This document shows, piece by piece, positions 23,274 through 47,263 of a stretch of DNA of 64,000 bases (the stretch's first letter is position 1; every line of letters starts with the position of its first letter). The notes below the pieces were generated by a model, which had not been told where the DNA came from, made no database searches, and saw nothing but the letters and a program-made list of their open reading frames with translations. The stretch is from Alphaproteobacteria bacterium (GTDB lineage Bacteria > Pseudomonadota > Alphaproteobacteria > Bin65). Position numbers and translations under genes: made by a program. The stretch spans positions 1 to 64,000 of the forward strand of contig JAJFFJ010000135.1 of assembly GCA_021776685.1 (NCBI GenBank), written 5' to 3'.

Positions 23274-23430
23274 TCGAAGTGGCGCGCGCCGCGCGTCCAG
23301 CCGCACATAACCGCTTCCCGCAAGCATAGTTCAGCCGAGACGGTCCCCTTTCAATGCCTGACGACTGCAAGCCTTTTACCTGTACGCCGCACTGCGCGCC
23401 GCGCCAAAGGTAACCGGCTGTTAACCATGA

Positions 23431-31221: not shown

Positions 31222-31376
31222 GCGCGACTTCCCCCCCCTTAGCCGATTTTCCCGGCGTTTTGAGTACCGTAAACGACATCCGGCGGCGTGTTAACTTTTT
31301 GCGGGCATATGGTTAACGCCCTGCGATCTAGGCGCCTCTTGCGTTGCGGGGGCCGCACCGCCTATTCCACCCGCTC

Positions 31377-43513: not shown

Positions 43514-45100
43514 GTGGGTCCCGCCGCGGCTGCCCCTCCCGCCGACGCGATCGGCATAGCTGCCCGTGTGGCTGGCCTGAACGGCTGGTGGCGGCGGCTG
43601 ACGGCGTTGCTGGCAGGCGTCGCTGCGGCGGCGGCGCTACCGCCGGTACATGGCCTGCCTCTGCTGGTCCCCGCATTCTGTCTGCTGGTTTGGATGCTGG
43701 CGGGACAGCAAACCCGGCGCGCCGCTTTTTCTCTCGGCTTCTGGTTCGGCTTTGGCCATCACGTGGCCGGACTCTACTGGCTGGCCTGGCCAATGACGCT
43801 GGATCTCGCCCGCTTCGGCTGGATGATCCCCTTCGCTGTGTTCGGAATGGCCGCTCTGCTCGGCTTGTTTACCGGCGCGGCCACACTCGCAGCGCATATG
43901 ACCGGCAGCCGCGGGCTTCGGCAGATCGTCTACCTGGCGGTCGCCTGGGCCGGGCTTGAATGGCTCCGCGGTTTTCTCTTCACCGGCTTTCCCTGGAACC
44001 TTCTGGCCAGCGGTTGGGTCGCCTTCGACCTGCCCCTTCAGTCCGCCAGTATTCTCGGCCCTTATGGACTGGGGTTGGTGACCGTGCTGATTGCGGCGCT
44101 GCCAGCAACGCTCTGGATGACCCTTCCCGGCCGCCAGCTTGGCGGAATCGTCAGTATTGTCTTGCTGGCCGGCCTGTTTGCCTTTGGCTGGGGCCGGCTG
44201 CCATCCGGCGACACGGGCGTCCTCCGAGACGTGCGTCTGCGGTTGGTGCAGGGTCATGTACCCCAGGCCCTGAAATGGGCCCGGGCCGAGCGTGAGCGGT
44301 TTTTCAGCCTCTATATCAATCTATCGCGTCGCCCCGGCTTCGAGCGCATCACCCATGTGATCTGGCCGGAAACGGCGGTCCACTATCGCTTCCAGACGGG
44401 CATCCGGTCGCTGCGGATCCGGGGCCCACGTCTGGCGCAGCTGCTCGGCGCAGTACCGAAAGGCGGCTATCTGATCGCCGGCACAATCCGGGACGATGGA
44501 CGACGGGCCTGGAACAGTGTCCAGGCAATCGACGGCAAGGGGAGACTGCACGCCACCTACGACAAGCACCACCTGGTGCCTTTTGGCGAATATGTCCCCC
44601 TGCGCAGCGTTTTGAACTGGCTGGGCGTCGAGCGCCTCGCTCACGGCCGATTCGACTTTTCGTCCGGCGCCGGCCCCCGCACGCTCAAAATTCCGGGTGC
44701 GCCTGCCTTCAGTCCGCTGGTCTGTTATGAAGCCATTTTTCCCCATCAGGCCGTTGGCGCAAAAAGACCGGGTTGGTTGCTGAACGTCACCAACGACGCC
44801 TGGTTCGGAACAACGTCAGGTCCCTACCAGCATCTTGCTGCCGCGAGGCTTCGCGCCGTCGAACAGGGCCTTCCGCTCGTGCGTGTGGCAAATACAGGCA
44901 TATCGGTTGTGACCGACGCCTATGGCCGGGTGACTGCCCGTCTGGGGTTGGGCAAGCGCGGCATCATCGACGCCTGGCTACCGGTCGCTCTGGGACGGCC
45001 GCCTTTCTATGCCTGGCTGGGCGACTGGGTCCTTTTGATCCTGTCTGTGGTGGCCGTACTTTTGGCGCAAATCACCCGTAGAACAGACTCGACTGTCTGA
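43514..45100 (+). CDS. lnt: apolipoprotein N-acyltransferase
   Basis: 528 residues from a GTG at 43514. Hydrophobic helices are followed by a nitrilase-fold domain with the Glu-Lys-Cys triad: WPETAVHY (Glu), DKHHLVPFGEY (Lys) and LVCYEAIFP (Cys). It acylates the N-terminal Cys of lipoproteins in the inner membrane, the last step of lipoprotein maturation. Three bases separate it from the CorC-like gene. Confidence 0.95.
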   Translation: MGPAAAAPPADAIGIAARVAGLNGWWRRLTALLAGVAAAAALPPVHGLPLLVPAFCLLVWMLAGQQTRRAAFSLGFWFGFGHHVAGLYWLAWPMTLDLARFGWMIPFAVFGMAALLGLFTGAATLAAHMTGSRGLRQIVYLAVAWAGLEWLRGFLFTGFPWNLLASGWVAFDLPLQSASILGPYGLGLVTVLIAALPATLWMTLPGRQLGGIVSIVLLAGLFAFGWGRLPSGDTGVLRDVRLRLVQGHVPQALKWARAERERFFSLYINLSRRPGFERITHVIWPETAVHYRFQTGIRSLRIRGPRLAQLLGAVPKGGYLIAGTIRDDGRRAWNSVQAIDGKGRLHATYDKHHLVPFGEYVPLRSVLNWLGVERLAHGRFDFSSGAGPRTLKIPGAPAFSPLVCYEAIFPHQAVGAKRPGWLLNVTNDAWFGTTSGPYQHLAAARLRAVEQGLPLVRVANTGISVVTDAYGRVTARLGLGKRGIIDAWLPVALGRPPFYAWLGDWVLLILSVVAVLLAQITRRTDSTV

Positions 45101-45183
45101 CGGCGACTGCACCTGAGAGGTCGAATTCCGCCAACAATTTCCGGTGGTGGGAAATTTAACCTTTCCAGGCGCCTGAAAAATAG

Positions 45184-45199
45184 TTAACAAATAGTTAAC
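45184..45199 (+). promoter_or_regulatory. CtrA-type box
   Basis: TTAACAAATAGTTAAC: exactly TTAA, seven bases, TTAAC, the full CtrA consensus, about 98 bases upstream of the XRE regulator gene. A GANTC (CcrM methylation) site, gaatc at 45248, is also nearby. This suggests cell-cycle control of the regulator and perhaps of metK. Confidence 0.65.
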
Positions 45200-45296
45200 G
45201 GGGTGGATCAAAATTTCGTGATTGAGTGAATTACCCCGGAAACCTTGGAATCTTTCTGGTGTCAAAGCCAGCATCAAAGGTCGGAGAAGCACATTG

Positions 45297-45773
45297 ATGT
45301 CGACGGATCAAACAGCAGAACCCCCAAAGCGCAGACGGGGGGCGACCCGACAGAAGCTTGAACGGCCGCGGCCTGTGGATGTCCATGTAGGCGGTCGTGT
45401 CCGCCTGCGTCGTACCATGCTGGGCATGAGCCAGGAGAAACTGGGCGATGCTATTGGACTCACGTTCCAGCAAGTGCAGAAATATGAGCGTGGCACCAAC
45501 AGGATTGGCTCCAGTCGCCTTTGGGAACTGAGCAAGGTGCTGGACGTCCCGGTATCATTCTTCTTTGACGACATGGCCACAGACGTGGCGGGCAACACCC
45601 CTCCGGCGCTGCCCGGCCTGGCAGAATCCGGCTCTCCGGCCTACGAGCCTGACACCCTGGCGAAGCGCGAGACTCTGGAATTGGTCCGCGCCTACTACAA
45701 AATTCGCAATCAGAAGGTGCGGAAACGGGTGTTTGAGCTGGCAAAGGCCCTGGCCAAAGCGGAAGACGCCTGA
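45297..45773 (+). CDS. XRE-type HTH regulator next to metK
   Basis: 158 residues from the ATG at 45297 with ggag upstream; frames extending earlier are less likely. The HTH is VRLRRTMLGMSQEKLGDAIGLTFQQVQKYERG, then RIGSSRLWELSKVLDVPVSFFF. The C-terminal helices (ETLELVRAYYKIRNQKVRKRVFEL) are probably dimerisation or ligand elements. It belongs to a group widely seen beside metK in alphaproteobacteria. The ligand is not known. Confidence 0.85.
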   Translation: MSTDQTAEPPKRRRGATRQKLERPRPVDVHVGGRVRLRRTMLGMSQEKLGDAIGLTFQQVQKYERGTNRIGSSRLWELSKVLDVPVSFFFDDMATDVAGNTPPALPGLAESGSPAYEPDTLAKRETLELVRAYYKIRNQKVRKRVFELAKALAKAEDA

Positions 45774-45835
45774 ACAGGAAAATTCCTGGCCTGGTTTCCG
45801 CGATTGTTGCGGGTAATCGCCTGCGGCAATGTTCG

Positions 45836-45853
45836 TTCTATTAAGCTATAGAA
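45836..45853. promoter_or_regulatory. inverted repeat between XRE regulator and metK
   Basis: TTCTAT, six bases taagct, ATAGAA. Arms are perfect. It lies 63 bases after the regulator stop and 133 before the metK GTG. Candidate operator for the adjacent XRE protein. Confidence 0.5.
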
Positions 45854-45985
45854 TCCGCCTTGCCCGGGGGCCCTGCGATGGATATTGTCGCCGCCCATGC
45901 GACGGCGCATGCGAGCCCCCAGGCTCCACCTGACACACCGGCGCCAGACCAGTCGATTCAGCCAGCGAGCTTCGGGAGGGGACAC

Positions 45986-47263
<1,278 letters not shown>

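Follow-up and report, generated by a model that had tools for sequence, protein, structure and literature searches.

The window analysed here is a stretch of 64,000 bp that represents contig 41 of a 4.54-Mb draft genome (158 contigs, 98.85% complete; G000 hereafter). Around 45 kb it carries lnt, a gene for an XRE-family regulator and metK in this order on the plus strand. The upstream gene lnt (apolipoprotein N-acyltransferase; 43514..45100, with the start taken from the ORF list) matched TIGR00546 at 299.7 bits (cut-off 132.9), the 158-aa regulator (45297..45773) was recognised by Pfam HTH_3 (E 4.2e-13), synteny and sequence, and metK (methionine adenosyltransferase; 45986..47263), read from a GTG start behind a G-rich stretch, matched TIGR01034 at 457 bits (cut-off 309). 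The XRE gene and its neighbour metK are therefore both what a preliminary description of this DNA had taken them to be.

The intergenic region between lnt and the XRE gene (45101..45296, plus strand) is 196 bp long and has a G+C content of 46%, compared with 62% for the window. A TTAA-N7-TTAAC motif had been reported at 45184-45199, and TTAACAAATAGTTAAC was indeed found there on the plus strand, within a complete palindromic element, GTTAAC-AAATA-GTTAAC, that spans 45183..45199. This CtrA-type box, assigned from its sequence and from counts in the window and across the genome, is an instance of GTTAAC-N5-GTTAAC, referred to as the strict form in the following. Because GTTAAC is self-complementary, TTAA-N7-TTAAC is also matched on the minus strand (45183-45198), and the spacing of 11 bp between the two hexamers makes the element a direct and an inverted repeat at the same time. 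From the end of the box to the ATG at 45297 there are 97 bases, so that the earlier figure of about 98 was right. The box is the only TTAA-N7-TTAA place in the window (0.07 expected per shuffled window), and for TTAA-N7-TTAAC one place compares with an expectation of 0.03. A single TTAAC half-site lies 5' of the box (45156..45160, plus strand); no sigma-70-like promoter was recognised in this region. Across 68 orthologous regions TTAAC was not enriched (17 observed, 18.7 expected).

The CcrM-type GANTC site that had been noted close by is present at 45248..45252 and starts 48 bases past the box, but its closeness means little, as the chance that such a site lies no more than 60 bp from a box of 16 bp is ~0.23. 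The densest GANTC cluster of the window, eight sites in 937 bp, also falls here (45086-46022); it was rejected as support because a maximum of at least eight was reached in 17% of random placements. Elsewhere in the window, at 31290-31317, a pair of GTTAAC hexamers 22 bp apart occupies the gap between divergent ORFs, one of 352 aa on the minus strand and one on the plus strand that appears epimerase-like by reading of the sequence, and at 23410-23429, GTAAC-CGGCT-GTTAACCATG stands 5' of a leuA-like gene (23491; unscanned and labelled by reading). In G001, a genome of the same family, a full strict form (L194:1166-1182) was found 233 bp 5' of an ORF that resembles this leuA-like one.

By synteny and sequence, the XRE protein is an orthologue of CdxA, PraR and PhrR. 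It is encoded in a single copy, with no paralogue in the genome at E 0.001, and close XRE proteins occur in named genomes such as those of Skermanella, Azospirillum, Rhodospirillum and Magnetospirillum. The lnt-XRE-metK order of the window recurs among relatives from named genomes, where lnt is upstream of the XRE gene in 68 of 80 loci and metK is also present in 39 of these 68. In Caulobacter, the gene for CdxA (CCNA_00049) lies between lnt and metK, and the cdxA, praR and phrR genes are like the one described here in that they encode an XRE-type HTH protein in a conserved lnt-metK neighbourhood. The cdxA neighbourhood is described as conserved across the class, and the praR genes of Azorhizobium and Rhizobium are named as its orthologues (PMC10462132). 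CdxA is reported as part of the holdfast (adhesin) network (PMC10462132), PraR as a regulator of R-bodies, biofilm and nodulation (PMC4149787, PMC5527310) and PhrR as acid-induced (PMC4327974), and the phenotypes known for the orthologues concern adhesion, biofilm or symbiosis (PMC10462132, PMC4149787, PMC5527310). Because of these roles, the output of the box would likely be a surface and lifestyle regulator rather than the supply of S-adenosylmethionine (SAM).

The lack of a ctrA gene, which the preliminary description had named as an argument against its own reading, does not apply to this genome. The genome encodes a CtrA that aligns with the Caulobacter query at 70% identity across 224 aa and scored 421 bits with the NCBIfam CtrA equivalog model (cut-off 350). 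It also encodes a CcrM with 68% identity, for which the scanned stretch of 246 aa matched the CcrM model at 485 bits, a value under the cut-off that the model sets for full-length proteins. GcrA (PF07750) was not found in the genome, although ctrA and ccrM are present.

Counting the box across the genome, a check that had been suggested beforehand, gave a result that depended on how strictly the motif was defined. The loose form TTAA-N7-TTAA occurred at 18 places compared with 30 for the reversed control, and its enrichment was consequently rejected as an argument for CtrA. TTAA-N7-TTAAC gave 22 strand matches compared with 9 for the control, and the strict form was found 7 times compared with 0 for the control, the highest count among 116 genomes. 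At least one half was extended to TTAAC in 17 of the 18 loose places, and half of them (9/18) were TTAAC-N5-GTTAA palindromes, for which the chance estimate is 1.5e-5; with three overlapping places at C66 counted once, palindromes made up 7 of 16 (chance 4e-4). All loose places except one (17/18) have a predicted ORF start no more than 200 bp away, although two of these are doubtful, namely one at C91, where the 126-aa ORF that follows lacks a domain, and one of the pair at C85, which becomes intragenic under a second choice of ORF.

The genes beside these boxes were assigned with a simple ORF heuristic and with Pfam and NCBIfam models, so start codons and hence distances are approximate. They include mraZ, which opens the division and cell-wall cluster, topA, and an rlpA-like gene whose product has DPBB and SPOR domains, together with genes that encode a Flp pilin, a RodZ-domain protein, an RpfF-like crotonase and a LapG-like protease; the RpfF and LapG models matched below their NCBIfam cut-offs, and the crotonase model PRK08788 matched above its own. 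Among these neighbours, topA and the RpfF-like gene are preceded by the strict form. Other box neighbours have no evident role in the cell cycle (a periplasmic binding protein, a Cys/Met enzyme, an aldolase-type protein and genes without domains). In published work, ctrA, gcrA and mraZ are named as bearing CtrA motifs (PMC3616915, PMC4287350), as is pilA (PMC11264516).

Arrays of half-sites were observed at two crotonase genes. Four GTTAAC half-sites, all 11 bp apart, lie 5' of the RpfF-like gene of G000 (L211:4407-4445, contig 66), which adjoins a kinase/Hpt region (read from sequence, unscanned), and seven lie 5' of a related crotonase gene in G088 (L160:1416-1528), the last three of them 11 bp apart. 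The two crotonases are 45% identical and come from genomes of two families. Could such arrays place a diffusible-signal system under the control of CtrA? Genes for LapG-like proteases (PF06035) likewise have a CtrA-type box upstream in both genomes, which is TTAA-N7-TTAA in G000 (L193, contig 131) and the strict form in G088 (L195, contig 33).

In relatives, the strict form was followed through 43 loci, taking the first site of each, and a predicted gene start was found within 450 bp in 39 of them. The site fell within a predicted ORF in three, one of which is a doubtful ORF of 93 aa with a further gene downstream at its locus. One gene each was scanned with Pfam at 30 of the 43 loci. Four of these 30 genes are ctrA (G031, with the strict form 24 bp 5' of the gene), gcrA and mmcB (both G017; the gcrA ORF used starts ~30 codons ahead of the likely true start) and a gene for a ParA/MinD-type ATPase that is CpaE-like by reading of the sequence (G014). 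A further seven encode kinases, regulators, or PAS, CHASE2 or GGDEF proteins, ten show no obvious connection to the cell cycle (among them a beta-lactamase-type enzyme, uvrC and an ion channel) and nine have no Pfam domain. mmcB is a known target of CtrA.

Over 116 genomes, including the one that carries the window, the presence of ctrA was scored at E <= 1e-70 and that of an XRE relative at E <= 1e-20. The strict form occurred in 21 of 69 genomes with ctrA and in 6 of 47 without (Fisher 0.043, with kinship ignored), compared with 15 of 69 and 10 of 47 for the reversed control pattern, which suggests a weak association of the strict form with ctrA. With the genome of the window excluded, there were 35 copies compared with 18 of the control in 68 genomes with ctrA, and 9 compared with 11 in the 47 genomes without. 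An association with the XRE gene was not significant (21/79 genomes with an XRE relative, 6/37 without; Fisher 0.25). The comparison thus serves in part as a natural experiment that tells CtrA and the XRE protein apart, although the effect is modest. Splitting the set by both genes, the strict form was found in 17 of 55 genomes with ctrA and XRE (36 copies, control 18), in 4 of 14 with ctrA only (6 copies, control 0), in 4 of 24 with XRE only (7 copies, control 3) and in 2 of 23 with neither (2 copies, control 8). Of the four carriers with ctrA only, G016 and G030 are 99% complete, whereas the absence of an XRE gene from G001 (75% complete, also without a metK match) and G041 (63%) may reflect missing sequence. 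Co-occurrence of XRE and ctrA themselves (both in 55 of 116 genomes, Fisher 0.002) was given no weight, since neither genome size nor phylogeny was controlled for.

At the lnt-XRE position itself, the box is hardly conserved. TTAA-N7-TTAA was found 5' of the XRE gene at 1 of 80 loci from named genomes (L089; L024 holds three upstream bases only) and at 1 of 29 other relative loci (L126), of which at least two (L113, L118) lie on the same contigs as loci from named genomes, and which were counted whether or not each has the lnt-metK context. It is absent from both genomes of the same family that have the XRE gene (G003, G005). Absence from relatives, which the preliminary description had held to speak against the box, is thus largely what was found, and because the box is this rare and missing from G003 and G005, its sequence distribution makes it a lineage-specific input. 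CtrA regulons differ between species, and conservation in front of orthologues is not obligatory.

The main rival to a CtrA site is an operator of the XRE protein itself, where a dimer would bind (T)TAAC-N5-GTTA(A) and repress the gene that encodes it, in the manner of PraR in Rhizobium. SELEX with PraR of R. leguminosarum and A. caulinodans yielded CAAC-N5-GTTG (PMC5527310), PraR binds its own promoter (PMC4149787), and the box shares the AAC-N5-GTT core and the spacing of this operator; TAAC-N5-GTTA differs from it in the two outer bases only, T..A in both halves in place of C..G. In addition, AAC-N5-GTT occurred in 9 of the 68 orthologous lnt-XRE gaps (3.1 expected; reached in 0 of 200 shuffles) and the perfect CAAC-N5-GTTG three times (0.23 expected; 1 of 200 shuffles). 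CAAC-N5-GTTG is however not matched by the box in the window, and the commonest palindrome of the orthologues is a different one. GCATAC-N4-GTATGC was the strongest palindrome found de novo, present in about a third of the 68 gaps by the model, and 19 of 80 loci scored at least 11.9, in-sample values, as 68 of the 80 had served to train the model. GCATAC or GTATGC occurred in 21 of 68 gaps (5.2 expected; 0 of 200 shuffles). This palindrome is a candidate auto-operator of the XRE family outside Rhizobiales, as judged from its sequence pattern, and it is missing here (best score -2.6, shuffled mean 2.1), even though the loci that carry it share the recognition helix LTFQQVQKYERG with the window; the helix core is common to nearly all loci, so this last point has little weight. 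Examples among L023-L102 are L045, L065, L066 and L102, and in several other relatives the palindrome was also seen just after TTGAC. TTGCAA, the second consensus given for PraR (PMC4149787), showed no enrichment 5' of the orthologues (5 of 68 regions, 4.6 expected). A regulon of the XRE protein read through YAAC-N5-GTTR was rejected, as this pattern was not enriched across the genome (116 places compared with 249 for the control), which also counts against self-regulation.

The occurrence of the strict form elsewhere also speaks against an operator of the XRE protein: it precedes ctrA and gcrA, it does not track the XRE gene significantly, and it is present in four genomes with ctrA in which no XRE gene was detected, two of them 63-75% complete. 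Self-regulation through the box thus appears rather unlikely. A GTTAAC repeat that arose by chance in an A+T-rich intergenic region and has no function would explain why the box is rare at the same position in relatives, and it would fit both the 46% G+C of the region and the lack of enrichment of the loose motif. It would leave unexplained that the 12-base strict form reaches its highest count of 116 genomes here, with none of the control, and that 17 of 18 loose places lie near predicted gene starts, several of them of typical CtrA targets; I consider a chance repeat distinctly improbable. CtrA is the probable and best candidate reader of the box. The earlier identification as a CtrA box holds up to the extent that both ctrA and ccrM are present and that boxes stand in front of genes for division, pili and the cell cycle, both here and in relatives, and it gains from the strict form in the four genomes with ctrA but without a detected XRE gene (two 99% complete, two 63-75%). 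On balance, the element appears to be a site at which CtrA binds the promoter of this CdxA/PraR-type regulator gene of the XRE family, a reading that I hold with reasonable though not high confidence.

A further proposal, that CtrA drives the XRE gene and the XRE product in turn sets the expression of metK, coupling SAM supply to methylation by CcrM, fared worse. The lnt-XRE-metK order recurs widely within the class (39 of the 68 loci from named genomes that have lnt in front; PMC10462132), the genome has ccrM, and a CtrA motif has been predicted at metK of S. meliloti (PMC3616915), so that even the bare idea of a link between SAM and CtrA is not wholly new. The XRE gene and metK are however separated by 212 bp, a gap that contains no TTAAC and holds a terminator-like hairpin (45803..45830, plus strand; 12 pairs, five of them G-C, with a modest T tail), although two such hairpins were found in the region where shuffles gave 1.2. 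Among 39 relatives the median gap is 215 bp, 12 have such a hairpin and none has a CtrA-like motif in the gap. No SAM riboswitch or other RNA element was found near metK; at gathering thresholds, no Rfam model matched anywhere in the window.

The two genes also come apart in other genomes. Seven genomes of genus g3 (G002, G004 and G006-G010; same family, 95-97% complete) keep metK with neither an XRE gene nor ctrA detected, so metK does not need this regulator; lnt is directly 5' of metK at four of the seven loci (L215, L216, L219, L221) and was not found in the stored stretch of the other three. These seven genomes have no strict form, and ccrM was found in two only (G006, G007). Conversely, 26 of the remaining 29 lnt-preceded loci from named genomes have no metK in the stretch stored past the XRE start (at least 2.7 kb, or ~2.5 kb beyond the gene), and there the XRE gene goes with lnt and not with metK. 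They fall within L043-L098, and many are from Acetobacteraceae, for example Roseomonas. The main texts of PMC4433202, PMC2877005, PMC7200025 and PMC4287350 do not mention metK. Given the gap and hairpin, the missing TTAAC, metK kept without XRE elsewhere, the 26 loci without nearby metK and the orthology of the XRE protein to CdxA/PraR/PhrR, the proposed route from CtrA through XRE to metK is very unlikely. metK is probably a separate transcription unit, with no sign in the sequence that it is under control of the box, and the present evidence does not tie SAM supply to the cell cycle.

From the site in front of the XRE gene, I infer a chain of events in which binding by CtrA, the sign and timing of regulation and an output in adhesion are all conditional. 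Phosphorylated CtrA would bind the two half-sites, which lie one helical turn apart, and would activate or repress the XRE gene in step with the cell cycle or the developmental state. The regulator would then feed a programme of adhesion and surface lifestyle, an output suggested because TTAA-N7-TTAA boxes of the same genome also precede the Flp pilin, LapG-like and RpfF-like genes, and metK downstream would probably be transcribed on its own. More tentatively, and with somewhat less than even confidence, the promoter may have been rewired in this lineage, in that the ancestral gene for the XRE adhesion-type regulator lost GCATAC-N4-GTATGC, gained a CtrA box and so came under direct cell-cycle control together with the pilin, LapG-like and RpfF-like genes.

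In a stalked budding bacterium, ChIP-seq of CtrA gave TTAA-N7-TTAAC as the consensus (PMC7200025). Compared with the full CtrA box TTAA-N7-TTAA(C) of Caulobacter, of that bacterium (PMC7200025) and of Sinorhizobium, the element matches the consensus exactly, is intergenic, lies no more than ~100 bp from a start codon and occurs in a genome with ctrA and ccrM; it differs in that both halves are full GTTAAC hexamers that form a direct and an inverted repeat at once, in its XRE target and in its poor conservation at the locus. An XRE regulator tied to the CtrA system is also known from Cereibacter sphaeroides, where XrpA represses ctrA and chpT (PMC11999139), whereas the direction suggested here runs from CtrA to XRE. 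In Caulobacter, RtrC activates cdxA directly (PMC10462132), and control by CtrA is not mentioned in the available text of that study. A direct edge from CtrA to cdxA, praR or phrR was not found in the literature searched and may still be in print; the main text of PMC4433202 does not contain phrR and that of PMC4287350 does not contain CCNA_00049.

The element thus looks like a probable CtrA site that is ordinary in kind and stands before an adhesion-type regulator. If CtrA binds there, a master regulator of the cell cycle would feed directly into an XRE-type regulator of adhesion and symbiosis that is widely conserved, and the locus would represent one more case of rewiring of the CtrA regulon outside the model orders.
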